From a virus: a stretch of DNA of 36,355 nucleotides. The stretch covers positions 1-36,355 of IMG/VR virus record IMGVR_UViG_3300032073_000089; one strand, written 5' to 3'. Under the pieces are notes generated by a model that was given only the letters and a program-made list of their open reading frames with translations, was not told the origin of the DNA and did no database searches. Position 1 is the stretch's first letter. Every line of letters starts with the position of its first letter. Made by a program: the position numbers and the translations under genes. Below, piece by piece: positions 6,501 through 33,604 of the stretch.

Positions 6501-9431
6501 CAATGTAATAGCTCCAAAAGATCCATCATGCTTCAAGAAGTGATTAGCGGTTCCTTGAGCTGGTACAACGCCCTGATTACCCGTGCCTACGCAAGTACGT
6601 ATTTGACTAGGAGTTAAATGCGCAGTAAGCGTTCCTTGACACTTGGCTGTGGCTGGTAAACGATCAGCATGTATATTTCCTGTTAAAGAAGCTGCGTTGT
6701 AGGCTCCTTTAAGGCAAGTGGTATCTACACAGTTATCTGTGCCAGTCGTACACAACTTAAGCACAGTGACATCAGCACTCGTTGGTAAACTTATAGCGGG
6801 AGTAGTGCCACCAGAAGAAACTAAAGGAGAGGAAGCTGTAACAGCGGTAACTGTACCTGCGTTATCTGTAGCTCCAGCACATATACCATCCAATTTATTC
6901 TTAAGGGTAGTAGTAAAATCGTTAGCGGTTGGAACAGTAACACAGACAGTCCCATTACTTACACTGAGACCGGTCCCAACTATTACTCCACCAAGAACGC
7001 CAGTCGTTGCTTGTTTTAAACTAATCGAACCAATACTAGTAATAGCACCACCATTATCTGTAAATAAACCCGTGCCTGCGGTAAGAGAGAAAACTGTACC
7101 TGTACAAGCTGTAGCTGTGGTTCCTATAGTTATGTTGTTAGAGTCAGTATGAGTTAAAGTTATAAGTCCTCCAGCAACCATCTTTATATCTTGAGTTCCG
7201 CTACCGGCGCCAGCTCTAGTTAACCTAAGGAGAACGTCGTTAGAAGAATCAACCCATGAAGAGGCGTAAGTGTTTTGGGTATCTGCGTCGGTTCCACTAG
7301 CAGCAGATGTAATCCTTCCTTGATCATCTACGGTTATATTTGCTCGAGTATAGGAACCAGCAGTAACAGATGTATCGTCTAATGAGATACTAGGGGTCGC
7401 TCCTGCCGTAGCGGTCAAGCCTGTACCTCCGGAGACAGAAGTAACTGTGCCTTGGCACTTAGCATCTGCTGGCAAAGCAGCCAATGTAATAGCTCCAAAA
7501 GATCCATCATGCTTCAAGAAGTGATTAGCGGTTCCTTGAGCTGGTACAACGCCCTCATTCCCCGTGCCTACGCAAGTACGTATTTGACTAGCAGTTAAAT
7601 GTGCAGTAAGCGTTCCTTGACACTTGGCTGTAGCTGGTAAACGATCAGCATGTACATTTCCTGTTAAAGAAGCTGCGTTGTAGGCTCCTTTAAGGCAAGT
7701 GGTATCTACACAGTCATCTGTGCCAGTCGTACATAACTTAAGCACAGTAACATCAGCAGTCGCTGGTAAACTTATAGCGGGAGTAGTGCCACCAGAAGAA
7801 ACTAAAGGAGAGGAAGCTGTAACAGAGGTAACTGTACCTGCGTTATTCGTTGCTGTAGTCGATATAGTAAACTTAGAATCATTAGTCCGAGCAACTGAAA
7901 TAAGACCAGTCCCTACAAACTCAATATCATCTGTGGTAGAGTCACTACCAGTTAGCCTTAACTTAGTTGTAGAGTTTGGTATAGAAACACTATAGGTAGT
8001 GTTCGTTGAATCGTAAGCTGGCACTTCCCAACTACCATCTGCTTTTAAAAACTTACCTCCATGACTAGCAGGTAACTGGGCTACGTAACCAACTTGTGAT
8101 GTTGACACCTGTTGCCAAGTATTCGTATTCACCCAAGGTACATTTACCACAGCCTCACAAGAAGAATTAAGCTGCACAGCATAAGATCTACTAGCTGTAC
8201 TCGAAACGCTTTCTGAGGCAACTGTTTGCGCTGTATCGCTTACTAATTTAATTCCACCAAGAGCTGAGTTACTAGAAGAAGGCAAAGAATAATTATTAGC
8301 AGTAATCCAAGACCCATCTTTTCTTAAAAAAGTATTATTATGAGTAGAACTACCAGCCGGAAGAAGACTGCCTGCTGAATAATTAGATGAGACTCCAAGT
8401 ATACCGGGTTTATTTAATATAAAAGCATCCGAAGAATTAGATCCTTGAGTCCAGTCAGCTTGAACATTAGCCTCTCCGCCAGCAGCTCCAGCTGAACAAA
8501 TAGTTACTGTTTGATTAGTGGCGTCAGTAGATATGGTCGTATTACTACCAGCTACAAAAGTTAAAGTATCAGTGATTCCTGCAGCTACGACATTATCTTC
8601 ATTAGCCACAGCGATAGTTTTAAAAACATCAGAAGCTTTTCCGTGAGCTACTCCGCTCACTACATGAATATCTCTATGCAGTACATTTCCAGTTGTATTT
8701 AGATTAGTGGTTAGGTTAGATATATCGGTATCGTTACTATCTATTCTACCGCTTACAACATGAACGTCACGATGCAATTTATCTCCAGTCGTATTTAGAT
8801 TAGTGGTTAGAGTGTTTATTGAACCACTTAAAGAATCTACATCCGCAACATTATCATCTATAATGCCACTCAAAGTTCTAACTATAACTCCGGTAGAGAC
8901 AAGATTTGTCGTCAAGGTATCTATAGAACCACTTAAAGAATCTACATCCGCAACGTTATCATCTATAACACCACTCAAAGTTCTAACTATGACTCCGGTA
9001 GAAACAAGATTTGTCGTCAAGGTGTCTATAGAGCCGCTTAAAGAATCTACATCCGCAACGTTATCATCTATAACGCCACTCAAAGTTCTAACTATGACTC
9101 CGGTAGAAACAAGGTTTGTTGTTAAGGTATCTATAGATCCGCTTAAAGAATCTACATCTTCATAATTATCAACTACAATTCCACTTAATACATCAAGGTC
9201 TCCACTTAAGATATGAATGTCTCTATGTAGTACTTGCCCACTATTAACTAAGTCCGCTCCTCCACCTGCGCTACTAGATATTTGTTGCCAAGCGCCATCC
9301 TTTTTAAGGTAGACCTTATAAGGAGAGTCGGTGGTATAGAAAAGTCCTCCGTCAGAAACTGTGTCTAAAGCAGCAGTTTTCTCACTATCTAAACCAACGA
9401 TTTTATCGCTAACGTACCTTTTGACAGCCAT
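3558..9431 (-). CDS. giant repeat-rich, cysteine-rich tail fibre with C-terminal S74 chaperone
   Basis: 1957 residues. Residues about 30-60 form a short 'GLFYTTDSPYKVYLKKDGAW' entry module, followed by an 'LHRDIHILSG' motif. Three 35-residue repeats (about 94-198, 'DSLSGSIDTLTTNL') come next, then two more HRD.H..SG motifs. The long shaft is made of GTVTSV-type modules ('GTVTSVTASSPLVSSGG', 'ISLP'), including a near-perfect 735-bp duplication. From about residue 300 on it is unusually rich in cysteine, with recurring 'LCTTGTD.CV' and 'KCQGT'. The last 118 residues are a peptidase S74 intramolecular chaperone: 'SDYRYKTN' supplies the Ser1840/Lys1845 pair, followed by 'VGFLAHELQAQL' and a terminal coiled coil with 'RVKTLESS'. 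S74 domains trimerise fibres and then cut themselves off. Probable receptor-binding fibre. Confidence 0.88.
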   Translation of the reverse strand: MAVKRYVSDKIVGLDSEKTAALDTVSDGGLFYTTDSPYKVYLKKDGAWQQISSSAGGGADLVNSGQVLHRDIHILSGDLDVLSGIVVDNYEDVDSLSGSIDTLTTNLVSTGVIVRTLSGVIDDNVADVDSLSGSIDTLTTNLVSTGVIVRTLSGVIDDNVADVDSLSGSIDTLTTNLVSTGVIVRTLSGIIDDNVADVDSLSGSINTLTTNLNTTGDKLHRDVHVVSGRIDSNDTDISNLTTNLNTTGNVLHRDIHVVSGVAHGKASDVFKTIAVANEDNVVAAGITDTLTFVAGSNTTISTDATNQTVTICSAGAAGGEANVQADWTQGSNSSDAFILNKPGILGVSSNYSAGSLLPAGSSTHNNTFLRKDGSWITANNYSLPSSSNSALGGIKLVSDTAQTVASESVSSTASRSYAVQLNSSCEAVVNVPWVNTNTWQQVSTSQVGYVAQLPASHGGKFLKADGSWEVPAYDSTNTTYSVSIPNSTTKLRLTGSDSTTDDIEFVGTGLISVARTNDSKFTISTTATNNAGTVTSVTASSPLVSSGGTTPAISLPATADVTVLKLCTTGTDDCVDTTCLKGAYNAASLTGNVHADRLPATAKCQGTLTAHLTASQIRTCVGTGNEGVVPAQGTANHFLKHDGSFGAITLAALPADAKCQGTVTSVSGGTGLTATAGATPSISLDDTSVTAGSYTRANITVDDQGRITSAASGTDADTQNTYASSWVDSSNDVLLRLTRAGAGSGTQDIKMVAGGLITLTHTDSNNITIGTTATACTGTVFSLTAGTGLFTDNGGAITSIGSISLKQATTGVLGGVIVGTGLSVSNGTVCVTVPTANDFTTTLKNKLDGICAGATDNAGTVTAVTASSPLVSSGGTTPAISLPTSADVTVLKLCTTGTDNCVDTTCLKGAYNAASLTGNIHADRLPATAKCQGTLTAHLTPSQIRTCVGTGNQGVVPAQGTANHFLKHDGSFGAITLAALPADAKCQGTVTSVSVGAGLTATAGATPSISLDDTSVTAGSYTRANITVDDQGRITSAASGTDADTQNTYASSWVDSSNDVLLRLTRAGAGSGTQDIKMVAGGLITLTHTDANNITIGTTATTNHTNTCLLGRANHTGTQTASTISDFDTEVANNTTVAGHTTKLAGIENGATADQSAGEICSAAGITSPLGTNAFNSTAFTTCLGTVTCVTAASPLAATAGTTPQISLPTSADVTVLKLCTTGTDNCVVSSAINSATYTFSGNINTSGSLNHGTNHWIKTNMLCTCGTNACIVSSNGSGKICGAFYGDGANITNLDADNISNLTTNDGTVVQVCVDSGLCLHSTADSFTVSDTICNTDKGSSQTIFKCIGVYNGATCCGTVIANTNTDTVCFVQGSNITLSHATDKITIAATNTTYSQANASTLGLVKLSGTPADNVTDTAITSNYIFDNLKTAVPVNACFTDTTYGQANSSTLGLVKISDSAGNNLSDTAISADWAYETLTIPNSTILGNNSGNTAEASELTCANVITMLGIDDGANANTYSINSQNISNIAAIRLSRASGSAGNATDDVCFVGGGATQICHCSADKISITSTDNNTQNIFTSSWYRNSGTAVCLRMTKSGASSGAQDIILCQGSNITLSASGSCLTINSTGVTQIVAGNGLSGGTITSSGTISLPATGPGAATYGCDDTNCKIDTITLDAYGRITALTCGPISTGTGATYTTSVPSSTTKLRLTGSDSTTDDIEFVGGTGITVSRKSASAICICATTGTGTVQSGLTGEAAYYTGVGTVVNGAAGIHIEPGTNPGGIHFWNCSSSGSCALAGSSDASKGSLYSYGSSRHPYWRDGSGTHWSVCINMTSDYRYKTNLTSWPSLCCSTNVIKNTPVYRFNWNEVGGAVNPLEGTSANKVGFLAHELQAQLSNTNIVRGEKDATNAEGAIIPQSIDEKGLIAVLWAALQENIEKLEDLEERVKTLESS
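6130..6864. repeat. 735-bp duplicated fibre module, copy 2 (C-terminal)
   Basis: This block matches 7111-7845 at a constant offset of 981 bases, with only scattered substitutions and no indel noticed. It codes for one shaft module of the giant fibre: GTVTSV segments, 'LCTTGTDNCVDTTC', 'HADRLPATAKCQGT' and 'TYASSWVDSSNDVLLRL'. The near-identity at DNA level implies recent duplication or gene conversion within the fibre. Confidence 0.85.
7111..7845. repeat. 735-bp duplicated fibre module, copy 1 (N-terminal)
   Basis: Direct repeat partner of 6130-6864 in the same reading frame. A shorter, more diverged relative of one end ('CTTGTDNCV' segment) lies near 5740-5820, so the shaft seems to have grown by repeated module copying. 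Confidence 0.85.
8838..9152. repeat. three tandem 105-bp repeats in the giant fibre
   Basis: Three consecutive 35-codon units ('DSLSGSIDTLTTNL...TLSGVIDDNVADV') have almost identical DNA. The landmark 'aagatttgtcgtcaagg' recurs at 8901 and 9006, with a near copy at 9111. A fourth partial unit continues to about 8796 and then diverges into the HRD.H motif. Confidence 0.88.
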
Positions 9432-13576: not shown

Positions 13577-14752
13577 TTAAACAAGCAAGCCTACGATAGC
13601 GCGAGCATCGATACATACGCGGCCTTCTTCCAACGAACCGTAGAAACCGATTCTCTCATTACGTTGAGTGAACTGGTCATCTGGTTGAGTTGTGAATGTG
13701 TCGCCAGAATCAGAATCCTGAGCGATAGCGCGAATGAATGCACCCTTGCTGTTGTCGACACCAACGAGAAGTTCATCGTCAGCAGCCAAGCTAGCAGCGT
13801 GAGCACCACTAGTGCCGTTAGGACCGATAGAGCCAGAATCAAACTCATCAAATAGAGTGTTGTATTTCTGACCAATACCGAGTTCGTTAAGCTCAACAAC
13901 ATTAACACCATAGATCTCCTGCATACCAGCCTGATTAAATACATCAGTTCTGATGCTATCTGGGAGAGCAATAGATGTGCTTGTATCTGAACCAGCACCT
14001 GTAGATCCAGCACGAGTATTCATTGGCTGATAAGCGAAAGCGCGAATCTGCTCTTTGATCTCAGGGCTGACATACAAATCGGTAATACCGTTACTATAAG
14101 CAGCATCTGGAGTACCACCAGCCCATGATTGATTGATTCTCTTATTAAGAGTCATCAACTTATTCAAGTCAGCCAACTGGAAAGTGCTTTCCGAAGCTGC
14201 TGGAATAACATGTGAACCGGCTTTAAGGCCAGAGATACCTACGCTAGAAGCAGTAACGCTAGATGTACTTGCGTTAGCCAAAGCGTTAAGAGCAACTGCC
14301 CAAGCATTAGTTTCCTGTTTAAGGAGAACTTCTTGTGACATACGCTCTACCAATTTGCTGACTACATCGAGTCTAGCCTGTCTCGCGTATTTCTTCGTGA
14401 TAGAAACCGCGCTGTCCAAGCGATACGTAGCAATTTTCAGCTCTTGAATCGCAGAAACGTCTTGGGAAGTCGGAAGACCACCTGCTACGCTCTGTGACCA
14501 AGTGCTTACATAACCGTCATTAGTCTCGTTGTAATACAAGTCCAACGGATAGCTTGCGCCTTCGTCTTGATTGAATGGAGCGTCTGTATAGATCGCCCCT
14601 GCTGTTGCAGCTTGCTGCAAAACTCTTTGGATTACCGGGCCTAGAAAAGCCGCGAAAGCTTCAGATGCTTCACGAGCAACAAGCTGGTTCTTAGAACCCA
14701 TGGCTTTAATAAGCTCAACTTGTTCTGGAGTGTTTTTTAACTTAAGTCTCAT
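13577..14752 (-). CDS. major capsid protein, HK97 fold
   Basis: 391 residues. The first about 45 are helical and charged, like a short delta domain. The core has the HK97-capsid pattern: a beta-hairpin 'IYTDAPFNQDEGASYPLDLY' for the E-loop region, 'AIQELKIATYRLDSAVSITK' then a long spine helix 'LDVVSKLVERMSQEVLLKQE', and later 'LYVSPEIKEQIRAF' with 'VYGV'-like P-domain strands ('EIYGVNVVELNEL'). It is the last gene before a strong terminator, is preceded by decoration and protease/scaffold genes, and has a strong AAGGAG ribosome site. Gene order and pattern make this one of the firmest calls. Confidence 0.9.
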   Translation of the reverse strand: MRLKLKNTPEQVELIKAMGSKNQLVAREASEAFAAFLGPVIQRVLQQAATAGAIYTDAPFNQDEGASYPLDLYYNETNDGYVSTWSQSVAGGLPTSQDVSAIQELKIATYRLDSAVSITKKYARQARLDVVSKLVERMSQEVLLKQETNAWAVALNALANASTSSVTASSVGISGLKAGSHVIPAASESTFQLADLNKLMTLNKRINQSWAGGTPDAAYSNGITDLYVSPEIKEQIRAFAYQPMNTRAGSTGAGSDTSTSIALPDSIRTDVFNQAGMQEIYGVNVVELNELGIGQKYNTLFDEFDSGSIGPNGTSGAHAASLAADDELLVGVDNSKGAFIRAIAQDSDSGDTFTTQPDDQFTQRNERIGFYGSLEEGRVCIDARAIVGLLV

Positions 14753-15436: not shown

Positions 15437-16078
15437 TTAGAATTTAATATCGAACTGTTCGACGCTGAAAGCGTCTTTAAATTTGTCATATGTAGACAAT
15501 TCAGAAGCCTCAGTAGAAGCAGGAACTACTTCTGCAGTAGCTTCGCCTCTGTCAAGTGCATCCTCAACAATGTTTTCAGAAGTTTCTTCAGAAGCGTTAG
15601 TAGTTTCGACAACTTCTTCAGCTTTGTTTTCTTCTTCTTTATTCGCCAAGACCTCTCTGGACTTGTCCCGTAAAAGAACTTTAACGTTAGAGGAGAAAGA
15701 TTCCCAATTCTCTTCGTCAAGTTCTTTGATTTGTGAAGCTAGAACTTTTCTATCCTCGTCTTCAAGAACGTAAGCCTCATCTAGAGAAGCCATTCTTTGA
15801 TTGAATAGTTCTTCAGATTCTCTCTGTTCTTTTTCGGTCTTCAAAGAACTAAGTTCTTCTCTGACGGAATCGAGTTCAGTCTTCAATGTTTCGCTGTCTG
15901 TAGATACAGACTCCAATCTATCTTGAGCCTCTTTGAGAGCTTTTTCTGCGGCGTGTTTTTCGGCTGAAAACCTCTCAGAAGCTTCCTTGAGTTCTGATTC
16001 AATAAAATCAGAAACAGCCGAGGCAGAAAGCTGCTTCAAAGAATCATCAGTGATTTCTTTAATACTTTCTATTTTCAT
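15437..16078 (-). CDS. predicted nested scaffold protein from an internal start
   Basis: ATG at 16078 is in frame with the protease gene (codon 275) and is preceded by GAGGA at 16086-16090, seven bases away. This site is better than that of the full-length start, which has no clear Shine-Dalgarno. The product would be 213 residues: 'MKIESIKEITDDSLKQLSAS', the coiled coil and the acidic C-terminus, with no protease. Lambda C/Nu3 uses the same nested arrangement. The prediction rests on the ribosome site and the domain boundary. Confidence 0.5.
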   Translation of the reverse strand: MKIESIKEITDDSLKQLSASAVSDFIESELKEASERFSAEKHAAEKALKEAQDRLESVSTDSETLKTELDSVREELSSLKTEKEQRESEELFNQRMASLDEAYVLEDEDRKVLASQIKELDEENWESFSSNVKVLLRDKSREVLANKEEENKAEEVVETTNASEETSENIVEDALDRGEATAEVVPASTEASELSTYDKFKDAFSVEQFDIKF

Positions 16079-16900
16079 AGCTATATCCTCGTTTTGGTTT
16101 ATTACAATATTTTGTTGTTTTTGTGAAGTTTCTTGTACCTCAGCAAAATTCTCTTCTTCTGCTTTTATGCTGTCTTTCGTTGCTACACCCTTGACATCAG
16201 CAGCTGGGGTTTCAGTTAAGCCTATACCTAAAGGGACAACATCCCCTACGACTTTTCTGTATACAAACATACCATCCTTGGTCTTTCCTTCTCCCCCTAA
16301 GGCTTTTAGATCTTTTTCCATAGAAGCTACCTCATCTTCATTATCAACGACGAGGCCATTCTCTATGTTCTTATCACTTCCTTCTAAAAGCACTAAATTA
16401 TATTCACTAAAGCCTAATTCCCAGCTAGCACTAATTTTCATGTAATCTTCACTTGTTGGGTCTCCAGAGCTTTCTATCAAATCTGAAATTTGACGATTTA
16501 CTATTTTCCACACAACTCCTCCAAGAGTTACGTTAAAAGGTCCTTCCATTTTTTCGACTTCTTCTTCGGAAAGAGGTTTATCGGAGCCAAACTCAGAAAA
16601 TCCAGCTGTTAGAATAGTTCCAATAACTCTATCTCTGTTATGTTCGATGTTAATTGGTTTATTTTTAAAGTCTTTATGAAAAGCCATAGCTGTTTTAGTA
16701 TCAACTACATCGCCATTCTTATTAACTCTATTAGCAACGAAAGCATTAAATGCTACCGGTAGTAAGTCTACGTTTTTCTCTGCGTCGATCTCAGGCAGGA
16801 ACTGAGCAACCTCAACAGAAGAGGCTAAGGCTAAATACTTATCTCTTTCTTCTGAAACTACAGGTTTTACCTCTGAACTAAATATTGTAGTATATTTCAT
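15437..16900 (-). CDS. prohead protease fused to internal scaffold
   Basis: 487 residues in two parts. Residues 1-230 are a herpesvirus/HK97-type maturation serine protease: 'NAFVANRVNKNGDVV', the catalytic His87 in 'INIEH', and the Ser in 'KISASWE' (157-159). Residues about 275-400 are a long acidic coiled coil ('EKHAAEKALKEAQDRLESV'), the scaffold that guides capsid assembly. The tail is acidic and ends 'YDKFKDAFSVEQFDIKF', a plausible capsid-binding end. Protease-scaffold fusions are known in several phages. An in-frame ATG at residue 275 with a good ribosome site suggests a separate scaffold product. It sits directly upstream of decoration and capsid genes. Confidence 0.85.
   Translation of the reverse strand: MKYTTIFSSEVKPVVSEERDKYLALASSVEVAQFLPEIDAEKNVDLLPVAFNAFVANRVNKNGDVVDTKTAMAFHKDFKNKPINIEHNRDRVIGTILTAGFSEFGSDKPLSEEEVEKMEGPFNVTLGGVVWKIVNRQISDLIESSGDPTSEDYMKISASWELGFSEYNLVLLEGSDKNIENGLVVDNEDEVASMEKDLKALGGEGKTKDGMFVYRKVVGDVVPLGIGLTETPAADVKGVATKDSIKAEEENFAEVQETSQKQQNIVINQNEDIAMKIESIKEITDDSLKQLSASAVSDFIESELKEASERFSAEKHAAEKALKEAQDRLESVSTDSETLKTELDSVREELSSLKTEKEQRESEELFNQRMASLDEAYVLEDEDRKVLASQIKELDEENWESFSSNVKVLLRDKSREVLANKEEENKAEEVVETTNASEETSENIVEDALDRGEATAEVVPASTEASELSTYDKFKDAFSVEQFDIKF
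16086..16090 (-). promoter_or_regulatory. internal Shine-Dalgarno for nested scaffold start
   Basis: GAGGA on the minus strand, seven bases before an in-frame ATG (16078) inside the protease-scaffold gene, at the end of the protease domain and beginning of the scaffold region. Confidence 0.5.
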
Positions 16901-16907
16901 GATATTT

Positions 16908-17339
16908 TTAATTTAAGCTATCTAGCCATCTTTGAGCATCTGCTCTCATTTCTTTGTCAGTCTGTAAATACAAATCTTCAGAACTATTAAAATTATAATT
17001 CTCTAAACCATATTTTTTTATTTCTCTCTCTGCTTCTTTAATCTCTTCCATAGATGGTTCAAAATAATCACCATCATCTATATAACCAGCACTAGAAGAA
17101 TTTAGAAACATATTAACTTTTGCTAAAGCTAAAGTAGAACTAAAAGAATCAGTAAGAGCATCTGTAAAAGTAGATTTTAATTTATCTAAAGTAATATCTT
17201 TATCGTTAGACAGGTTATGCTCTTTTACTTTGTTTTGAAGGGCTGTAACTAGCTTAGAAGAGAACTCTATCGCACTGGAATCTTGATTAGCGAAATCGCC
17301 TTGACCACTACAGTAAAATTCTACGTCTAAATGATTCAT
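16908..17339 (-). CDS. unknown head-operon protein
   Basis: No family is recognised. With the ATG at 17339 the protein has 143 residues. A GTG at 17360 would add seven, but it falls inside a GTGTATAATA promoter-like motif, so I prefer the ATG, which has TAGG just upstream. It is acidic and mostly helical ('DSSAIEFSSKLVTALQNKV', 'MEEIKEAEREIKKYGLENY'), with no signal or membrane segment. It lies seven bases before the protease-scaffold gene and just after a terminator, so it begins the protease-decoration-capsid transcript. A head-assembly role is a guess from position. Confidence 0.65.
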   Translation of the reverse strand: MNHLDVEFYCSGQGDFANQDSSAIEFSSKLVTALQNKVKEHNLSNDKDITLDKLKSTFTDALTDSFSSTLALAKVNMFLNSSSAGYIDDGDYFEPSMEEIKEAEREIKKYGLENYNFNSSEDLYLQTDKEMRADAQRWLDSLN

Positions 17340-17350
17340 ACAGCCTAAAT

Positions 17351-17360
17351 TATTATACAC
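17351..17360 (-). promoter_or_regulatory. GTGTATAATA promoter-like motif before the protease-capsid transcript
   Basis: On the minus strand, TG directly followed by TATAATA lies 11 bases from the 17339 ATG and just downstream of the terminator at 17378-17418. It is well placed to restart transcription for 143-aa gene, protease, decoration and capsid. No -35 hexamer is evident. Confidence 0.45.
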
Positions 17361-17447: not shown

Positions 17448-18035
17448 CTAAAACGGTCCGTCACCAGCTTCAGAGTGTAAATCGTTAGTAATATCTGGTA
17501 ATGCCGCAGTGGCTCCAGCAGTTATCATACCTGATTGTTTATAAGCGAAGGTGACACTATAGCTTCTTGAGTAAGTGTTTACAACTCCTGAAATACCCGT
17601 TACTGTACTATTATTTAGAGTTAAGTCTCCTCTTGAAACTGTCATGCTAGAAAGACCGCTGCCTTGTTTTACTCCTGAATCGTAAGCAACGAACGCGCTA
17701 TCAAGAACAGCGTTAACAAATTTCTGGGCTCCGCCATGAGCTTCTGTACCATTCGAATTAATAAAATCGCCTACTGTAAGTGAATAATTTTTTTCTAGTG
17801 GGTCTCCTATTTGGTTCTTAAGAGTTGCGTCACTATAAGGTGCCCCCGCTAACGATCCTAATGTTATCGGAATTACGATGCCTGTAACATTTGTATCATT
17901 ACCTGCTGTCACAACTTCTGCAGGTGATTTAACCCCGCCCTGAAGGTAGTGTATACCTCCAACCGCTGTACCAGAAGTAAGATAAGAAAGCTTACTTCCC
18001 CGAGTGTTTATATTAAAATTGTGTTCTGTTGACAT
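17448..18035 (-). CDS. unknown probable virion protein with dedicated promoter and terminator
   Basis: 195 residues, no recognised family. It is beta-rich and Gly/Ser/Thr-rich ('VTGIVIPITLGSLAGAPYSD', 'RGDLTLNNSTVTGISGVV', 'TYSRSYSVTFAYKQSG'), without signal or membrane segment, like many minor virion proteins. It has a strong AGGAG site nine bases before ATG, a TATAAATA element 16 bases upstream and a strong terminator downstream. It may therefore be expressed strongly and partly independently of the operon, which suggests an abundant structural protein. It sits between FtsZ-like and head genes, so a partnership with the tubulin is worth testing but has no direct support. Confidence 0.65.
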   Translation of the reverse strand: MSTEHNFNINTRGSKLSYLTSGTAVGGIHYLQGGVKSPAEVVTAGNDTNVTGIVIPITLGSLAGAPYSDATLKNQIGDPLEKNYSLTVGDFINSNGTEAHGGAQKFVNAVLDSAFVAYDSGVKQGSGLSSMTVSRGDLTLNNSTVTGISGVVNTYSRSYSVTFAYKQSGMITAGATAALPDITNDLHSEAGDGPF

Positions 18036-18099: not shown

Positions 18100-19251
18100 T
18101 TATTCTAGATCTCCTAGTTTCTTTAACTCTCCTAATTTCTCATCTGGAGTAGAGATTCCGCCTATGATAGTGAAAACTGTTAAATTATTTTTATCTCCAC
18201 TATATACACCTCTATGAACAACACTTCCAGATTTTAAAAGTCTAGTTAGCTGATCAAAAGCCTGATCAAGATTCGACTGAGGTATATCATCTAAAACTTC
18301 CTTTCCTCCAATTAGTATAGCTCCAGCTGCGTTTGCTGTCGAAATATCTATACCTCCAGACATACTGCCGCTTTGAGCAATACTTCTCACAGCTCTAGAA
18401 ATGTTGACTGGATCTTTCCAGTCTGCAACAGGCGTAGCCCCAAAAATGGTAATGCCAGAATCTAGCACGCTTTTGTAATCGCTAGAGTCAAAAGAGGAAT
18501 AAGAACTATCTTTTGAAGCTGTCATGTTAAACAAATGGAAGACACCTGCTGTACTCATATTAGCAGTTTGCCAAAAATTAGAGACAGAAACATTAGAGTA
18601 AATCTTGCTAGTTTTTTCGTTATCTATAATCACCAAAGGAGATACTACTCCTTGTTCAACAAGCTCACAAACTTCTTTTAAGGTCTCATAAGCGTTAGCG
18701 TTAACTCTTTTGCCTTCTGAATATTTCGGTAAAGCTAATATAACTCCTACCTTCTTAGAGTCAGAATTAAGAGTCTCTTGTAATTCTTGGGCTGTCTTGA
18801 CTAAAGGAACGACTGTTCCTGCTCCTGAGCCACCACCTGCTCCCGCACAAACAAAGATCCTATCTAGATCTTCGCCAAAAGATCTCCTCATAAAATCTAG
18901 AACATCATCTTTCTTTTCTTCGAAACATTTCGCTGCAACAGATCTATCTTTTCCTGCCCCTCCGGAGCCTATACATAGTTTGTTGTCAACATGAACAGTA
19001 TTTAAATCTTGTTGAGCTGTATTTACGACACCAATTTTTCTATAACCAAGTTTATGAAAGCTTTCTGCTATCCTAGAGCCACCTTGTCCCGCGCCAATAA
19101 ACGCAAATTTAAAAGCTCCTTCTACTTCGTCTTTTACTTCTTTCTTCTCTTCGGGCTCTGGCGGCAGAGGAATATCTGGCACTATTAAGTCTATATCCAC
19201 ACCACCCATATATTGGTTTACGTCTTGTATATTATCTTTATTTTCACTCAT
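18100..19251 (-). CDS. FtsZ/tubulin-family GTPase in the head operon
   Basis: 383 residues. Residues 1-45 are an acidic, proline-rich extension. The GTPase domain follows: 'KFAFIGAGQGGSRIAESF' (T1 loop 53-60), 'GVVNTAQQDL' (ribose/T3 region), the tubulin signature 'GAGGGSGAG' at 137-145 (FtsZ GGGTGTG), 'GVILALPKYSEGKR', and 'IIDNEKT' where FtsZ has 'PNDRL'. 'FDSSDYKSVL' (254-263) matches the FtsZ T7 loop 'VDFADVKTVM', keeping both aspartates needed for GTP hydrolysis between subunits. It should therefore polymerise and hydrolyse GTP. It starts two bases after the portal gene stop without its own ribosome site, so translation is probably coupled to portal. Phage tubulins (PhuZ, TubZ-like) position DNA or capsids, but they usually lie outside head operons. 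Confidence 0.88.
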   Translation of the reverse strand: MSENKDNIQDVNQYMGGVDIDLIVPDIPLPPEPEEKKEVKDEVEGAFKFAFIGAGQGGSRIAESFHKLGYRKIGVVNTAQQDLNTVHVDNKLCIGSGGAGKDRSVAAKCFEEKKDDVLDFMRRSFGEDLDRIFVCAGAGGGSGAGTVVPLVKTAQELQETLNSDSKKVGVILALPKYSEGKRVNANAYETLKEVCELVEQGVVSPLVIIDNEKTSKIYSNVSVSNFWQTANMSTAGVFHLFNMTASKDSSYSSFDSSDYKSVLDSGITIFGATPVADWKDPVNISRAVRSIAQSGSMSGGIDISTANAAGAILIGGKEVLDDIPQSNLDQAFDQLTRLLKSGSVVHRGVYSGDKNNLTVFTIIGGISTPDEKLGELKKLGDLE

Positions 19252-22193: not shown

Positions 22194-24047
22194 TTAAAAG
22201 AACATAATAGGCTCAAAACTTTGCTTAGTAATGTTATTTTCTGTGTTACTTATATCGTTATATAGCTTAAGACCCCAATTCGCCAACATTAATGCCGAAT
22301 AATTATCTTTTCTGGCTTTATTAGGGGAAGTAGACCTTTTAAGGTGTTGAGGTAGGTCAAAATTCTGGGAACCTCTAGAAGTTGCTTTATGCTCCACTAA
22401 ACTGCATTGTTTCTTAGTTTGATATATCATATCGTCTTGGTGCTCAATAAAATCAAGCATAGACCACTCTTTTCTATCTTCTATAAAAATGAGTTTTTTA
22501 GGGTTAGGTAATCTAATTGAGCTTGTTCTATTAAAGAAGACCTCATTAGAAGCTGTTCTCGAAGCAAACCAAATTTTCTTATAGTCTATACAAGCTTGAA
22601 GATACTCATTAGCTCTTCTAATAAAATTACTAGTAAAAACTTGATTAAAACAAATTTGATTATTTTCTTGATTATATTTTAATTTAGCTGTTCTTAATGA
22701 CTTTTGGTATTCTAAACCTTCTGAGTCTGAGTTTAAAGGTATGGTTTTTAAGTTTATTCTAGCGTCTTTAAAAAATTGAGATTCATTACAACTATCTAAA
22801 TAAGTATCAGATCCAGCATTATCAAGGCATATAAAAACAATATTAAAAGCTTGAAGCAAATAAGCTAAATATTTTACATGATTATTTAAACTACCTAAAC
22901 CCGCATAAGAATGAACCAGAGTGCCTTGGCCTGTATTATCATCTATTTCCATTACAGCTATAGCAAAGTAATCGGCTGTAGGGCTATCGCTCATATTAGG
23001 GTCAATACCTAAAACATAACGCTTTCCTGATCTCCCCACCATTAAAGTGCAAGGCTCTTCCTCTCCTTTTAAAGTACAAAGCTCCATCTTCTTTGCGCTG
23101 AAATAGCTGTCACTTCCATCAGTGAACTGGGCGCAATATTCCCGTTGGAAAGAGAAATGAGAGGCTCCTCCTTCTTGAGCTTCTTCAATAATTGTTCTAT
23201 CAATCATTTCTTCCGGTAAGGCTTCGTAACCCATTTGAGATACGAAATACTTAGCATCACCTACGTCCTCTGGAGTTTGAATTTTACCAACCCACTCTTG
23301 ATATGTTTTATATAAATTTTCAAATGTATAACTAGCAGAAGAAAGAGCTATCATCTTAGACTTATTCTCAAACTTAGTTCTGTCTTCTTCTTTAATTACC
23401 CCATCAGCTACAAGCTTATCCTCTACTTCTTTTATTTCCATTCTACGCTTCATATCTTGAGGAGCGACAAGAAATGGCATTAAGACATTTTTGATTATAT
23501 CTTCTGGTAATAAAAGATACTCATCCAACACAAGTATATTTGCACGGAAACCACGTATTTTCTCACCACTTAAAGGTATTGCTGTTATAGTGCCTCCGTT
23601 TATTTTCCACTCGTATTGATCATTTCTTTTTGTTTTGGCTCCAAAAGCTTGAGCTAGTAAAGTGGCTTCTTTTGTTTCAACTATTTTTTCTATATTGTTA
23701 AAAATAAATCTAGCAGTACGAAAAGTTGGGCCAGCTATTAAGATTTTAGTATTAGGCTCAAATATACATTGAAGAAAACAATAAATCGAAGCTATAAAAG
23801 ATTTACCACAACCACGTCCCCATACGCACATACTAAAGTTCCTATTAAACATTCCTCGAAGAGTGATTTCTTGGAAAGGAGCTAATTTTATTCCTGTTAA
23901 GAGGTAAGTGGTAAAATATAAATTATTCCGAAGAAATTCAGCTAGAGTTATTCTTGCGTCTTTATCTTCTAGGAAGCCTTTTATTTTAGATAGACGATCA
24001 TTTACATCGTCAACTTCTCTTTGGTATTTCTCTGGAGACGACCACAT
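22194..24047 (-). CDS. terL: terminase large subunit (packaging ATPase and nuclease)
   Basis: 617 residues. The ATPase domain has Walker A 'WGRGCGKSF' (76-84), 'AGPTFRTARFIFNNI', Walker B 'ILVLDEYLL' (171-179) and coupling motif 'IALSSASY'. The RNase H-like nuclease domain begins 'YVLGIDPNMSDSPTADYFAI' with the first metal-binding Asp, then 'ICLDNAGSD', and a late acidic site 'FIEHQDDMIYQT' with 'RKDNYSALMLANW'. It pumps DNA through the portal and cuts it. It starts one base after the ERCC4-nuclease stop and has the normal TerL size. The call is firm. Confidence 0.95.
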   Translation of the reverse strand: MWSSPEKYQREVDDVNDRLSKIKGFLEDKDARITLAEFLRNNLYFTTYLLTGIKLAPFQEITLRGMFNRNFSMCVWGRGCGKSFIASIYCFLQCIFEPNTKILIAGPTFRTARFIFNNIEKIVETKEATLLAQAFGAKTKRNDQYEWKINGGTITAIPLSGEKIRGFRANILVLDEYLLLPEDIIKNVLMPFLVAPQDMKRRMEIKEVEDKLVADGVIKEEDRTKFENKSKMIALSSASYTFENLYKTYQEWVGKIQTPEDVGDAKYFVSQMGYEALPEEMIDRTIIEEAQEGGASHFSFQREYCAQFTDGSDSYFSAKKMELCTLKGEEEPCTLMVGRSGKRYVLGIDPNMSDSPTADYFAIAVMEIDDNTGQGTLVHSYAGLGSLNNHVKYLAYLLQAFNIVFICLDNAGSDTYLDSCNESQFFKDARINLKTIPLNSDSEGLEYQKSLRTAKLKYNQENNQICFNQVFTSNFIRRANEYLQACIDYKKIWFASRTASNEVFFNRTSSIRLPNPKKLIFIEDRKEWSMLDFIEHQDDMIYQTKKQCSLVEHKATSRGSQNFDLPQHLKRSTSPNKARKDNYSALMLANWGLKLYNDISNTENNITKQSFEPIMFF

Positions 24048-26107: not shown

Positions 26108-26814
26108 AACCAATCTATATCATCCTTTTCTAATATTTTTTTAGCTTTAATTATAATAGATTTTTGAATATTTTTAATTTGTTTGTATCCGGGACATCTA
26201 TTTTTCTCTGAAGTCTTAAAATTTAGCTCTTTTGCTATCTCTTGCTCTGGTTTATTTTGTATATAAAATCCTTCATAAACAACCCATTCATTATGCTTTA
26301 ATACTTGTTTTAACCTAGCATGCATTTTAGAAATCCCATTTTCAATGCTTATTGAGTCTTCGGATCTATTGTCGACTTCTGACTTGTGGTTCTCTAAGGG
26401 TAGAGCCATTTTAACATCATAAGCCGATTTTTTCTTAGAAACCCATCTTGCATACAAAGGGCACCTAGAATCTTGGGTTCCGTATATTGTGCAAGCTGAC
26501 TCTGATTCTGCAGCTGCGCATCTAACGCAAGGCTTACAGTAATTAGTATAATTATTTCTTACTAGATTTTTAAGTTGGTTTGATATTATCCTATTTAACC
26601 AAGGTAGCAAGGGCTTTGATTGATCATACAAATGCCATTTTTTGAATATATGTATTTTTAAAATTTGAGAGATATCTTCAAAATCCATCCAAGTTATTGA
26701 CGTTAAAGTCCACTTGCCTTTTCTTTTGTTTATCTCTTCATCTATTATCTCAATACTCTCTTCAAAAATAATTTTTTTCTTTTTTTTGGTTTTCGTCTTC
26801 TTTTTAGCCGCCAT
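26104..26814 (-). CDS. phage sigma factor with zinc-binding insertion
   Basis: 236 residues. The first 14 are nearly all Lys/Ala/Thr. Residues about 40-90 resemble sigma region 2 ('FEDISQILKIHIFKKWHLYD' then 'PWLNRIISNQLKNLVRNNY'). Residues 170-230 resemble region 4, a DNA-binding HTH ('NEWVVYEGFYIQNKPEQEIA', 'YKQIKNIQKSIIIKAKKI'). Between them a Cys cluster (93, 96, 99, 108, 118: 'CKPCVRC...CTIYG...CPLYARW') probably binds zinc. This is the architecture of divergent phage sigma factors that direct late transcription, comparable in role to T4 gp55. It overlaps the zinc-ribbon gene by 11 bases and heads the head operon. Confidence 0.78.
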   Translation of the reverse strand: MAAKKKTKTKKKKKIIFEESIEIIDEEINKRKGKWTLTSITWMDFEDISQILKIHIFKKWHLYDQSKPLLPWLNRIISNQLKNLVRNNYTNYCKPCVRCAAAESESACTIYGTQDSRCPLYARWVSKKKSAYDVKMALPLENHKSEVDNRSEDSISIENGISKMHARLKQVLKHNEWVVYEGFYIQNKPEQEIAKELNFKTSEKNRCPGYKQIKNIQKSIIIKAKKILEKDDIDWL

Positions 26815-27127
26815 CTTTAGGACTTTCTTGAGGTACTGGCTTCATTAAGTTAGATAAAGTTTGAGAGTTCTTTGACCCAAAGACGCATCCTTCTATGTCT
26901 AGCTCTAACGGAGGTATATCGGTACTTATCTTGATAAGCTCTTCTTCTATTTCTTGGTTTTCTGCCTCTATTTCTTTAGTCTCCGGCTTAGGAACGCTAC
27001 CATTAAAAGACGTTCCGCAAGAAGAACAAAAGTTTGGAGACTCTAACAAAGAAGAGGCTTTCGATAATACCCATGGGTTAGAACTACCGCACTTATTACA
27101 ATAAGTTACTTTTTTATACTTAGACAT
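26804..27127 (-). CDS. zinc-ribbon protein upstream of sigma factor
   Basis: 107 residues. 'YCNKCGSSN' (Cys10, Cys13) and 'FCSSCGTSF' (Cys34, Cys37) form a clear four-Cys zinc ribbon. The rest is an acidic tail ('EIEAENQEIEEELIKI') ending in a short unique segment. Zinc ribbons with acidic tails are common in transcription accessory proteins. Because the gene overlaps the sigma-factor gene and probably leads the transcript, a co-factor for late transcription is a reasonable inference but is not shown. Confidence 0.7.
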   Translation of the reverse strand: MSKYKKVTYCNKCGSSNPWVLSKASSLLESPNFCSSCGTSFNGSVPKPETKEIEAENQEIEEELIKISTDIPPLELDIEGCVFGSKNSQTLSNLMKPVPQESPKDGG

Positions 27128-27185
27128 ATTTTTTAAAACCCAGCAAATAGTTATTACAACTAACTATACTTTTAGAAAGAAAATT

Positions 27186-27464
27186 ATGGCTTCCTTCACT
27201 AATAACGATAAAGTAAAATACACTATAATCAAAAGAAGGCCTCATAAAATATATGATGCAGATGGTTTGTGTGACCCTCCAGAATACGAAAATCCTAAAA
27301 TACATATAGCCCAAGACCTCCCTCCAAAAAGGGAGATGGCTGTTGTTTTAGAGGAGATAATGCATGCCTTCTTCTGGGATATATCCGAAAAAGAAGTTAG
27401 AAAATTCTGCTCTACAGCGACAAGAATTTTACATAAAGATGGGTGGCGTAAGACCGACAGTTAG
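27186..27464 (+). CDS. small protein with degenerate HExxH-like motif
   Basis: 92 residues, the only plus-strand gene in this part. The N-terminal half has 'YTIIKRRPHKIYDADGLCDP'. The C-terminal half has 'VVLEEIMHAFFWDISEKEV' followed by 'CSTATRILHKDGWR'. Small phage proteins with 'hE.lHa..wd..e..v' occur in aquatic phages and recall the zinc-metallopeptidase helix. Here the first His is replaced (EExxH), so catalysis is doubtful. It is divergent from the zinc-ribbon gene (58-base gap with TATACT upstream), and its stop overlaps the phoH stop on the other strand. Confidence 0.65.
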   Translation: MASFTNNDKVKYTIIKRRPHKIYDADGLCDPPEYENPKIHIAQDLPPKREMAVVLEEIMHAFFWDISEKEVRKFCSTATRILHKDGWRKTDS

Positions 27465-28231
27465 ACATGAGGGTTAACTGATAAGTCTTTAAATTTAGTT
27501 ACTAAGAACCTAACCAGCTCTGATCTAACTACGTCAGACTCATCGAACTCAAAAGTATTAATGCCAAAGTTTTTGCTGGCTTCGTCTCCAAAAAGACCTT
27601 GTACTTTTTCGTATCCGCCTCTTGCTCCATTTTTCAAGTCTGTCTGAGCAGGATCTGCTAAAACAAAGCACTTAGAACCCATTCCTAATCTTGTAAGCAC
27701 GGTGACTATTTCTTTTAATGTGCTATTTTGGCATTCATCAAATATAAGACATTTAGAATTCCAACTCATACCTCTACAAAAATTAACAGGATAAGTAGAA
27801 ACTCTTTCGTCTTTCTGTAGCTTTTTGATTACGTTAGGGCAAACAAGCTCTTCCATTTTATGCAAGAAAGGAAGGTTGTAAAAATGAAGTTTTTGATCTG
27901 CGTCTCCGGGTAAAAATCCCATTCTTGAGTCGGAACTCTCGACTGCAGACCTTATATAGACTATCTCAGAAACTTTTCCTTCGTTTAGTAAATGCAAAGC
28001 ACAGTAAACGCTAAGTAAGGTTTTAGAGCATCCAGCAGGACCTTTTGCGAAAAGTATCTTTGACTCTTTAGCTAGAGCTATTTTTATGAATTCTTTTTGC
28101 TTATCTGTCCAATCAAAGTTCTCTATATGGAACTTTTCTCTATGTCTTATGGGTTCTCTTTGTAAGGCTTTACCTTTAATATTCTCTAGATCCAAAGAAT
28201 CGGCCAGTTGTTCAAATTTTAATTTTGGCAT
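27461..28231 (-). CDS. phoH: PhoH-like P-loop ATPase
   Basis: 256 residues. After about 40 residues comes the PhoH core: 'WTDKQKEFIKIALAKESKIL', Walker A 'GPAGCSKT' (64-71), 'GKVSEIVYIRSAVES', 'MGFLPGDADQKLHFY', Walker B 'CLIFDECQN' (161-169), 'LTRLGMGSKCFVLADPAQTD', and 'GARGGYEKVQGLF'. PhoH is a phosphate-starvation ATPase in bacteria, proposed to act on RNA, and is very common in marine phages, where its role is unsettled. The P-loop has Cys-Ser instead of the usual Thr-Gly before the Lys; the Lys and Thr remain. It is cotranscribed with the MscS-like gene upstream. Confidence 0.92.
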   Translation of the reverse strand: MPKLKFEQLADSLDLENIKGKALQREPIRHREKFHIENFDWTDKQKEFIKIALAKESKILFAKGPAGCSKTLLSVYCALHLLNEGKVSEIVYIRSAVESSDSRMGFLPGDADQKLHFYNLPFLHKMEELVCPNVIKKLQKDERVSTYPVNFCRGMSWNSKCLIFDECQNSTLKEIVTVLTRLGMGSKCFVLADPAQTDLKNGARGGYEKVQGLFGDEASKNFGINTFEFDESDVVRSELVRFLVTKFKDLSVNPHV

Positions 28232-28245
28232 AACAAGCTAGTATA

Positions 28246-28563
28246 TTAAGCTGCTTCCTCCATAGGTTTGATTTTCTTCTCTAATCTCAAACCTTTTATG
28301 TCTTCATTAGCAATATCTACTTTAGTTTTAGTGTCATTAAAGTAAAAAGTAGTACTTCTTAAACCTACTCTTACTATTCTACAAACTCTTCCTCCCATGA
28401 TATAAACATCATCAGATTTGATACCGCCAAAGAGAGACATGGAGACTGCTGCTGCAAAACTAGTTATGGTCTCTTTGAAAATAATACCTGCTGCTCCTGC
28501 GAGCAACAACCAACCGTGTTCGCCGATAAAACTCTGACCGGCACTTGCGATTTGATCTTCCAT
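28246..28563 (-). CDS. miniature MscS-like membrane protein A
   Basis: 105 residues from the ATG at 28563, which lies seven bases after GTGTATAAT. An ATG at 28581 is possible but would place that motif inside the gene. A single hydrophobic helix (about 17-40, 'GWLLLAGAAGIIFKE') is followed by a beta domain 'DDVYIMGGRVCRIVRVGLRS', 'TTFYF' and 'TKVDIANEDI'. This matches the MscS beta-domain pattern 'gD.i...g..G.V..I.lr.T.....g..v.iPN..l', cut down to one helix plus that domain. The 28620 gene on the opposite strand is its paralogue. It may be a subunit of a small membrane oligomer, though channel activity is unproven. Confidence 0.65.
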   Translation of the reverse strand: MEDQIASAGQSFIGEHGWLLLAGAAGIIFKETITSFAAAVSMSLFGGIKSDDVYIMGGRVCRIVRVGLRSTTFYFNDTKTKVDIANEDIKGLRLEKKIKPMEEAA

Positions 28564-28570
28564 ATAATAT

Positions 28571-28579
28571 ATTATACAC
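28571..28579 (-). promoter_or_regulatory. GTGTATAAT promoter-like motif, possible leaderless start
   Basis: TG directly followed by a perfect TATAAT on the minus strand, seven bases before ATG 28563. A start site at normal distance from this -10 would fall on the ATG, giving a leaderless message. No Shine-Dalgarno is present. Confidence 0.45.
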
Positions 28580-28597
28580 ATTTTAATTTAATATTCG

Positions 28598-28606
28598 GTG
28601 TAATTA
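28598..28606 (+). promoter_or_regulatory. GTGTAATTA motif before the plus-strand MscS-like gene
   Basis: Plus-strand member of the recurring motif, 13 bases before ATG 28620. A TATACT (28609-28614) also lies five bases before the ATG. Divergent with the minus-strand elements in the same 56-base gap. Confidence 0.35.
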
Positions 28607-28612
28607 TTTATA
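28605..28612 (-). promoter_or_regulatory. TATAAATA late-promoter-like element
   Basis: Second exact TATAAATA on the minus strand, located in the divergent gap and 41 bases before ATG 28563 (MscS-like A, then phoH). Confidence 0.4.
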
Positions 28613-28619
28613 CTGAAAC

Positions 28620-29066
28620 ATGAATCAAAAAATAATAGCTCCAGAGGCGCAAGCTTTACTAGAGCAAATGATAGGCCAATATGGATGGATTTTTTTATTT
28701 GCTTTTGCTGCAATTCTTTTTAAAGACGCTGTCCATAAAGCAGCTGAAGGTTTTCTAATATGGCTTGGTTCAGATTTCAAAAACGACGACATACTTTATA
28801 TTTCTGGTAGGCAAGCACGCATAGTAAGAGTCGGGATTTTGAAGACGATTTTTTACATGTCTGACCGCGGAACTAAAATGCTAGTTCCGAACGACAGATT
28901 AAAATTACTCGTAATTGAAAAACAACTTCCCAAAAACGGATCTTATCCATATTTATATAAAGCCGGGGAGTCAGGGTACGAAGAACAGGAAGAAAAACGA
29001 ATAGTAAGAGATAACCTTCCTGATATAGTAATGAACTTAAAGGACGAATCAAAAGAAAAAAAATAG
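28620..29066 (+). CDS. miniature MscS-like membrane protein B
   Basis: 148 residues, aligning end to end with the protein encoded divergently at 28246-28563: both have 'GW' before one membrane helix, 'K.DD..YI.GR..RIVRVG', 'T.FY..D..TK' and an Asn-containing loop ('VPNDRL' here, 'IANEDI' there). The 'GR.ARIVRVGILKT' and 'VPNDRL' parts fit the MscS beta domain. It adds a charged 45-residue C-terminal tail ('GYEEQEEKRIV'). It is first in a plus-strand run of small membrane-protein genes. Two family members with different tails suggest a hetero-oligomer or antagonistic pair, which is inference. Confidence 0.65.
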   Translation: MNQKIIAPEAQALLEQMIGQYGWIFLFAFAAILFKDAVHKAAEGFLIWLGSDFKNDDILYISGRQARIVRVGILKTIFYMSDRGTKMLVPNDRLKLLVIEKQLPKNGSYPYLYKAGESGYEEQEEKRIVRDNLPDIVMNLKDESKEKK

Positions 29067-29068
29067 TT

Positions 29069-29359
29069 ATGGAAAACTCAGTACATTATATTATAGAGGG
29101 CGTGTTAGCAGCAGGTGGATTTATGGTAGCTTTAATTATAAGAAGAGCATATCACAGCATAGATGAATTATGGAAAAAGCATGACGAAATGACCTCTCGC
29201 CTTACTAATATGGCTATCGACTTACCTAAAAACTACGTAACAAAGAATGATCTAACACATGCTATAGATATTATACATGATAGGTTCGACAAGCTAGACG
29301 CTAAGTTAGAAAAGATTTCTCAGAATACAAGAATAAAAAGAATGAACGACACTCAATAA
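29069..29359 (+). CDS. small membrane protein with one helix and coiled coil
   Basis: 96 residues. A single membrane helix near the N-terminus ('IIEGVLAAGGFMVALII') is followed by a charged helical tail ('SIDELWKKHDEMTSRLTNMA', 'LPKNYVTKNDL...IIHDRFDKLDAKLEK') typical of small phage membrane proteins in lysis or virion regions. It begins two bases after the MscS-like B stop. It could be a holin-like or membrane-anchoring partner; no enzyme motif. Function is not established. Confidence 0.7.
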   Translation: MENSVHYIIEGVLAAGGFMVALIIRRAYHSIDELWKKHDEMTSRLTNMAIDLPKNYVTKNDLTHAIDIIHDRFDKLDAKLEKISQNTRIKRMNDTQ

Positions 29360-30598: not shown

Positions 30599-30942
30599 AA
30601 TTCCACGAATATCTAGTTGAACTTAGAAAAAGGAAATATCAAAATATTACTAAATTAGCTAAGCAATTAAAGGTAGACTATCAAATGTGGAGAAAAATAG
30701 AAAGAGGTATAAATCCTCCTCCTAGGAGAACTTTGCTATCTAAATTCTGCAATATAGTATTAATTAAAGAATACGAGAAAAATCAACTTTTTGAATTAGC
30801 TAGGAGATGGGAGCCTCATCCTGATACGAACACGACTAGACATAATTTATACCACGAAGGACTTGAACCAGATTGGGTACAGGCCATCATAAAAGAAAAC
30901 ACTCCAGATTACCCAGATAAATACTGGGGTAAAAGAACCTAA
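30595..30942 (+). CDS. XRE/Cro-like helix-turn-helix protein
   Basis: 115 residues. Residues 1-60 form a Cro/C1-type HTH: 'LRKRKYQNITKLAKQLKVDY' then 'QMWRKIERGINPPPRRTLLS', where 'W.kiErG...P' matches the end of the recognition helix and helix 4. The C-terminal half ('LARRWEPHPDT', 'EPDWVQAIIKENTPDYPDKY') is unique. It is probably a DNA-binding regulator, last in the plus-strand run, and its stop overlaps the DUF1552 stop on the other strand. Its target is unknown. Confidence 0.72.
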   Translation: MKFHEYLVELRKRKYQNITKLAKQLKVDYQMWRKIERGINPPPRRTLLSKFCNIVLIKEYEKNQLFELARRWEPHPDTNTTRHNLYHEGLEPDWVQAIIKENTPDYPDKYWGKRT

Positions 30943-32605: not shown

Positions 32606-33553
32606 TTAAAATAAGAAGTGAATAGCTAATACCATAACAACTGATATAGCTAACCCAACCATCATCTTTAGAAAATCTTTTAACAACATCGGGAAAACGA
32701 TTTTCATGTTATGAGAGTCACCTAAAGACTTAGTAGTTACAAAAGCCAGCTCTCTTCCTGCTAACAAACCAACAAATACCCAAGTAGTGCTCATAGGTAT
32801 ACTGTTATAGCTTTTAAAATACCAGAGTATAAGGCTATAAACTAAATCCACAATAGTTGCAGATCTAACATAATTTACATTAGCTTTAGAAAGCACAATT
32901 TTTTGAATCCTACCACCTTTTTCAAAAAACATAAAACCTAAACCAATAACAAATACTAAGCTAATTAATATCATTGTAATTACTGGGATCTCTCTAGGTA
33001 AGAATACTGCTATATTTGCCATGTCGTGAGAAAGCCATGTAAACCAAAGCCAGCCTGTTGTTAGCCATTGAGCGCAACGCCAAGCAGTTTCTCTCTGTGG
33101 AGCCACATCTTTTTGGTTCTCCCAATATTTAGATACTGCAAGCCAAATCACATAAGCAGCCGTTGCAGCGACTACATACCCCATAGCAGACTTGATTAAA
33201 ACTTTTTCCAATACGAGTGTACTAGCAAAAGCTGATAAAACTAAAAATGTTGTACTTACTGGAACTCCAAACCTAGTGAGAGCTACTAATATCATAGGAG
33301 CTAAAGCATGATACCATTCAACAGTCTGATAAGGTATTTTATCTAACCTTCCATAAGATATATCTCCACCATTTACTGTCCAGCCATACCAAATAGTAAA
33401 TAACAGGACAGAGCTAGCCGCTCCCCACATATAATACCATTTGAATTTTTTTGAATTTGAAGCGATCCATGTCCCTAAGGTTTGTACTGAGTCATTTGCG
33501 ATTACAGAATATGCCGCTAATAGAAACCCAACAATTACGTATACGTTCTCCAT
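32606..33553 (-). CDS. pit: PiT-family inorganic phosphate permease
   Basis: 315 residues from the ATG at 33553 (an ATG six codons earlier is possible). It shows the two-half PiT pattern: first-half motif 'IANDSVQTLGTWI' (cf. 'GANDvaNa'), 'PVSTTFLVLSAFASTLVLE', and second-half 'YNSIPMSTTWVFVGLLAGRE'. About eight to ten membrane helices make it shorter than many PiT proteins but of usual build for the 'ANDs.QTLGT' subtype. PiT carriers import phosphate, often as metal-phosphate, driven by ions. Pho-regulon phosphate genes occur in marine phages, but usually the binding protein PstS; a whole permease is unusual. TATAATA six bases before the ATG may be the promoter. Confidence 0.85.
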   Translation of the reverse strand: MENVYVIVGFLLAAYSVIANDSVQTLGTWIASNSKKFKWYYMWGAASSVLLFTIWYGWTVNGGDISYGRLDKIPYQTVEWYHALAPMILVALTRFGVPVSTTFLVLSAFASTLVLEKVLIKSAMGYVVAATAAYVIWLAVSKYWENQKDVAPQRETAWRCAQWLTTGWLWFTWLSHDMANIAVFLPREIPVITMILISLVFVIGLGFMFFEKGGRIQKIVLSKANVNYVRSATIVDLVYSLILWYFKSYNSIPMSTTWVFVGLLAGRELAFVTTKSLGDSHNMKIVFPMLLKDFLKMMVGLAISVVMVLAIHFLF

Positions 33554-33559
33554 ACCCTT

Positions 33560-33568: not shown

Positions 33569-33604
33569 CATCCTTAGTTTAAGATCAAGTCACAATTACG
33601 TCAC

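Follow-up and report, generated by a model that had tools for sequence, protein, structure and literature searches.

A tubulin-superfamily GTPase gene beside the portal gene of IMG/VR viruses and its possible late role in infection

The DNA analyzed here (the window), recorded in IMG/VR as a linear virus sequence of 36,355 bp, carries a cluster of head genes on one strand, within which lies a gene, here called TUB, for a tubulin-like protein (Table 1). The stop codon of the portal gene and the ATG of TUB are 2 bases apart, and a 64-nt gap follows TUB downstream. A preliminary description made from the DNA letters had called the upstream gene a portal, which agrees with structure comparison: all 50 of the 50 Foldseek matches listed for its low-confidence model (pLDDT 59) were phage portals, the best at 2.4e-5. 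The portal gave no Pfam match and no PDB sequence match, and PDB sequence searches using portal and capsid profiles were likewise without a match. By its profile matches the predicted terminase large subunit is a clear assignment. Between TUB and the putative protease lie a 195-aa protein that was detected in no clade but the window's own and matched no Pfam or PHROG family, and a 150-aa protein that gene clustering of 11 large contigs found conserved beside the protease whether or not the phage carries TUB. The putative protease, for which Pfam, PHROG and protease profiles gave no useful match, was also conserved in both kinds of contig. The capsid assignment is tentative, with a family match below the cut-off (PF25209 Phage_capsid_4, 1.2e-4, in 4/16 members), and it fits the presence of a Shine-Dalgarno site, as a match of at least 4 nt preceded the gene in all 49 of the homologues checked.

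Table 1 Head-gene region of the window and the basis for each feature
Feature	Position	Strand	Basis
Probable major capsid protein	13577..14752	-	Weak PF25209 Phage_capsid_4 match, Shine-Dalgarno site
Putative prohead protease with a possible fused coiled-coil scaffold region	15437..16900	-	Position and motif only
150-aa protein adjoining the protease	16908..17360	-	Gene clustering
195-aa protein, variable occupant of the portal-protease slot	17448..18035	-	Occurrence in the window's own clade, no family match
TUB, tubulin/FtsZ-superfamily GTPase, 383 aa	18100..19251	-	Pfam PF00091 and PF13809, AlphaFold2, Foldseek, VIA
N-terminal tail of TUB, residues 1-45, predicted disordered, acidic; proposed adaptor/tether site	19117..19251	-	pLDDT, motif conservation
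Portal protein, 626 aa	19254..21134	-	Foldseek of model
Terminase large subunit	22194..24047	-	PHROG_2 (4.6e-25), PF03237 (5.2e-8)

The TUB open reading frame is complete from ATG to stop, and TUB is a genuine tubulin-superfamily GTPase by family, fold and motifs. PF00091 matched above its cut-off (E 1.3e-11, 45.6 bits versus 33), as did PF13809 (30.6 versus 27), and PF00091 exceeded the gathering score in 12/12 relative contigs as well. The best PDB sequence match was B. cereus TubZ, both with the single sequence (6.5e-14) and with a family profile (5.1e-18). An AlphaFold2 model built with 33 homologues (pLDDT 81, pTM 0.82) retrieved TubZ as the best Foldseek match (1.3e-23), followed by FtsZ and CetZ, and VIA-align placed CetZ2 (Z 35.3, 2.4 A over 312 residues) level with the TubZ structures 4ei7 (35.2) and 2xka (35.0). 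The nucleotide-binding and catalytic loops are recognizable as T1 GAGQGGSR (53-60), T4 GAGGGSGAG (137-145) and T7 FDSSDYKSVL (254-263); their key residues are practically invariant across 92 full homologues, in all of which both T7 aspartates (D255 and D258) are kept, while S, A or T stands where FtsZ has its T7 Asn. A chance or false-positive tubulin match is ruled out by these family, fold and motif tests together. The complete FtsZ/tubulin-like GTPase of the preliminary description, with its T1 loop, tubulin signature and T7-like loop retaining both catalytic aspartates, is thus confirmed, including by two of the checks it had proposed, a profile search and a structure prediction. Because loops T1 to T7 are intact, TUB is likely to be an active GTPase that polymerizes.

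Phylogenetic analysis grouped the TUB homologues in one clade (support 99/100) outside both FtsZ (100/98) and PhuZ (100/100); the nearest neighbors of this clade were phage G and the TubZ-like tubulins of plasmids (85/94). A second tree, calculated without CetZ and with a more distant copy from a sister branch (described below), did not resolve the deep order, and here too the FtsZ and PhuZ clades (100/100 each) excluded TUB. Identification as a genuine FtsZ was rejected on this placement and on the score against the FtsZ equivalog model TIGR00065 (60 bits versus a cut-off of 295.2), and identification as a genuine PhuZ was rejected because the PhuZ clade leaves TUB outside. TUB shares the GTPase fold and loops of FtsZ and lacks its C-terminal peptide. 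Its similarity to TubZ of the TubZRC systems (B. thuringiensis and B. cereus plasmids, C. botulinum phage c-st) is closer, covering the fold of residues 42-383 (Z 31-35) and an FDxx(D/E)-type T7 loop in addition to the best PDB sequence match. Unlike TubZ, however, whose C-terminal tail binds TubR and TubY (PMC5322520), TUB has no tubR-like gene upstream and no long C-terminal tail, is located in a head operon and carries a conserved tail at its N terminus. A TubR partner or a centromere next to TUB was looked for and rejected, as there is no such gene and gaps of 2 and 64 nt leave no room; across 97 loci the upstream neighbor was the portal gene or a larger insert, not a small tubR gene.

To our knowledge, phage tubulins have been studied experimentally in two settings only, namely the nucleus-forming jumbo phages, with PhuZ, and the plasmid-prophage c-st, with TubZ. 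Like TUB, PhuZ of the Chimalliviridae is a phage-encoded, lineage-restricted tubulin, and it is repeatedly absent among relatives (PMC10299810). PhuZ forms a clade separate from TUB, however, and PhuZ of 201phi2-1 is not annotated beside a portal gene. The putative FtsZ-like gp138 of Bacillus phage G, the sole isolated-phage relative found by sequence (24.7% identity), lies among nucleotide-metabolism genes rather than beside a portal. The preliminary description had stated that known phage tubulins are not usual members of the head cluster, and these two examples bear it out. Tubulin and shell homologues have been described in PhiKZ-like jumbo phages from marine sources (PMC9123017), and the best viral structure match to TUB was an uncultured Caudovirales protein annotated in UniProt as 'FtsZ Cell division GTPase' (A0A6J5RW92; E 5e-31, TM 0.83, 26% identity). 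Viral tubulins are therefore already known, and it is the TUB family and its place beside the portal that appear to be new, as no description of either was found in the open-licence literature. Seven TUB-bearing contigs of 68-158 kb, all incomplete, contained no detectable chimallin and no multisubunit RNA polymerase (beta'); for chimallin this is suggestive only, because the control search detected just 2/4 phages that carry PhuZ.

The two ends of TUB differ in character. The C terminus is one short conserved helix, whereas residues 1-35 form the sole part of the AlphaFold2 model with pLDDT below 50, which adds predicted disorder to the acidic, proline-rich composition already remarked on in the preliminary description. 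Within this tail a PDIP[L/M]P motif is kept in nearly all of the 92 homologues, and DLPDIPMP is retained in the sister branch at 44-50% protein identity. The disordered N-terminal tail is likely to serve as an adaptor site, and because the C-terminal helix offers no long TubZ-type tail, cargo would probably be held at the N terminus. A conserved tail at this end rather than at the C terminus would be a new means of cargo attachment.

Scans of viral contigs returned 65 and then 200 TUB relatives, giving a family of at least 200 loci in IMG/VR, whose source samples we take from their metagenome identifiers to be mostly marine. A scan of genome contigs with the family profile yielded no relative, and a bacterial or archaeal origin of TUB was accordingly rejected. 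In two tubulin scans TUB lay downstream of the portal gene in every locus and ahead of the protease wherever the protease was covered. The portal-TUB distance was within 6 nt or overlapping in 77/97 loci, 1.1-1.5 kb in 19 and 3.6 kb in one, so the synteny survey suggested by the preliminary description places TUB directly after the portal in most of them; many of these loci are near copies of one another, and the counts are therefore not independent events. TUB starts placed at -17 and -23 probably reflect incorrect ATGs further upstream; the starts known from tblastn lie about 4 nt after the portal. Distances between TUB sequences followed those between portals closely (Mantel r 0.963, with 0/500 permutations as high), and TUB was the least diverged of four genes (0.366 versus 0.43-0.48). 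Its dN/dS ratios were mostly 0.01-0.05 and usually below those of portal, capsid and protease from the same pair, with dS near saturation in several pairs. TUB is under strong purifying selection and is inherited with the head genes, and it represents a third, widespread tubulin family, borne by uncultured phages and located in a late head operon under very strong constraint.

The proximity of the two genes had led the preliminary description to suggest that the amount of TUB is tied to portal. Its observations, a 2-base spacing and no ribosome site of its own, are literally correct, but the latter applies equally to other genes: in the window no Shine-Dalgarno match of at least 4 nt was found for TUB, and the same was true of portal, TerL, protease, PhoH and others. 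Many TUB relatives do have such a site, which argues against portal-tied dosage as a conserved feature, and in about 20 loci TUB lies 1.1-3.6 kb away. Translational coupling to the portal was consequently not robust across the 97 loci, and the suggestion is not supported in the form in which it was argued.

When portals of divergent TUB-bearing phages served as queries, at least 588 portal relatives were recovered, among which TUB is patchily distributed. The whole interval from portal to protease was devoid of TUB in 10 loci that were read, a further 25 had no TUB across at least 4 kb downstream, and no tubulin domain was detected in 19 of 20 whole contigs (up to 133 kb) with related portals. 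These TUB-free phages have portals about 50% identical and the same head-gene order. Mapped over the portal tree, presence and absence of TUB required 6 changes, at least 3 of which are forced by well-supported branches. TUB is an accessory gene that is mostly inherited with the head module and has been gained or lost several times, a pattern expected for an accessory cell-organizing gene. The sister branch, represented by two contigs with a portal relative at about 1e-197 (G046 and G048; 78,889 and 38,494 bp), carries a TUB copy with 44-50% identity in a different place: some 14 kb separate it from the portal gene, it is encoded on the opposite strand, and it adjoins a DUF1552 gene and lies near an ammonium transporter gene. 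The portal neighborhood is thus not obligatory, and the tail motif is retained without it.

Comparison of six large TUB-bearing and five large TUB-free contigs identified sigma-like, nuclease, TerL, portal, protease and capsid genes common to both groups, with TUB in 6/6 of the former and 0/5 of the latter. In the TUB-free contigs the portal-protease interval held four genes, all absent from the TUB-bearing contigs, of which one has a lysozyme-like domain (PF16754, 1.1e-8) and two appear lipoprotein-like by eye. The interval spanned 1.6-7.7 kb in phages that have TUB and 0.6-7.2 kb in those that lack it, and is a variable late cargo slot; the position of TUB therefore mainly argues for late expression and not for a part in head building. 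The PF16754 and lipoprotein-like genes at L222:6743-9187 (G013 26743-29187), in the TUB slot of TUB-free relatives, likely form a lysis cassette. A ClpP-like protease gene (L102:4671-5414; PF00574, 2.7e-28) was found near TUB in some genomes and far from it in others. It was present in 5/6 TUB-bearing and 0/5 TUB-free contigs, but as the TUB-free contigs in this comparison are close relatives, this co-occurrence is confounded with clade and the gene is not claimed as a partner of TUB.

The interpretation we favor, to which we give slightly better than even credence, is that TUB is a lineage-specific late cytomotive phage tubulin whose filaments position DNA or procapsids, with cargo probably attached through the N-terminal tail. 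As a protein closest to TubZ-like tubulins, TUB would bind and hydrolyze GTP and polymerize head to tail into dynamic filaments. These would form during late infection, at the time of presumed head-gene expression, and would position or move cargo in the host, which may be replicated DNA or else procapsids and packaging sites, probably engaged through the conserved, disordered PDIP[L/M]P tail. Such filaments would resemble PhuZ in function, not in family, in phages whose (incomplete) contigs carry no detectable phage-nucleus genes. It is the relatives with the same head genes and either no TUB or TUB located elsewhere that make an organizer of the cell late in infection most likely, and not a builder of heads.

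The same relatives weigh on a role at the portal itself, in which TUB is made in step with the portal and docks on it or on the procapsid for positioning, or is packaged or attached to the virion. Close or overlapping placement in 77/97 loci, joint evolution with the portal and the lack of a strong Shine-Dalgarno site for TUB, portal and TerL in the window, unlike capsid, are all consistent with this role. However, phages with a portal about 50% identical and the same protease and capsid genes manage without a tubulin, one or more genes separate portal and TUB in other loci, the sister-branch copy lies on the opposite strand some 14 kb from the portal, and the same slot carries lysis and fibre-like genes in other phages. 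The argument from position made in the preliminary description is weakened by these comparisons, and we regard the role as unlikely. Quite improbable, too, is a variant in which the PDIP[L/M]P tail links the filaments to portals or procapsids as sites of nucleation or attachment, TUB then acting as a capsid-borne motor that moves or orders procapsids with no phage nucleus.

Affinity to TubZ raises the prospect of plasmid-type (type III, TubZRC) partition, with TUB segregating an episomal phage genome in a carrier state just as c-st TubZ segregates the plasmid prophage (PMC7950403). The closest solved structures and sequences are indeed TubZ, and the tree points weakly toward phage G and the plasmid tubulins, but in plasmids a small gene immediately precedes tubZ, in the tubR place, where TUB has the portal; the 2-nt upstream and 64-nt downstream gaps leave little room for centromere repeats, and the missing TubZ-like C-terminal tail and late-gene position also count against partition, which we consider very improbable. 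We also see little chance of interference with host division, by which TUB would co-assemble with or poison the divisome, its PDIP[L/M]P tail mimicking the DIP-type C-terminal peptide of FtsZ. The conserved disordered tail with a DIP core and the FtsZ-superfamily fold are compatible with mimicry. On the other hand, the likeness of the two peptides is a weak resemblance between short motifs, TUB falls outside the FtsZ clade (100/98) and far below the FtsZ cut-off (60 versus 295), and a poison needs no full active site, which TUB has. Returning to the late cytomotive tubulin, its presence in phages without detectable nucleus genes suggests a tubulin-based intracellular organization that is not tied to the phage nucleus, and the natural distribution of TUB-bearing and TUB-free phages over one conserved head module makes its role testable by comparison.

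Several other genes of the window and its relatives are worth recording. An ammonium transporter gene (33654-34898, minus strand; PF00909, 2.8e-115) was absent from 20 related contigs scanned; as Amt-like genes were recognized by sequence inspection near TUB in the sister-branch contigs (L245:509-1729 and L246:513-1727), it appears to be a genuine metabolic gene carried by phages. A DUF1552/HXXSHH protein (30939-32183, minus; PF07586, 3e-81) has counterparts in 15 viral loci on contigs of up to 200 kb, some apparently from different phages with tail-sheath-like genes, and a membrane protein (32606-33571, minus) showed a weak phosphate-transporter (PHO4) match below the cut-off (0.0013). The 1957-aa repeat-rich protein (3558-9431, minus), with a weak C-terminal intramolecular-chaperone match (PF13884, 0.0062), is a probable fibre or receptor-binding protein. 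Elsewhere, a 158-kb TUB-bearing contig (L092-L099, G001) encodes ribonucleotide reductase, ThyX, IMPDH, sugar epimerases and an OrfB_IS605/Cas12f1-like (TnpB-type) gene. A 116-kb TUB-bearing contig (G002) carries lambda-type minor tail genes, RIIA/RIIB and its own tmRNA (L101:10829-11256). Beside these tail genes lies a 6037-aa open reading frame (L103-L104, G002:72847-90960); should it encode the tape measure, a tail length close to 0.9 micrometre would be expected.
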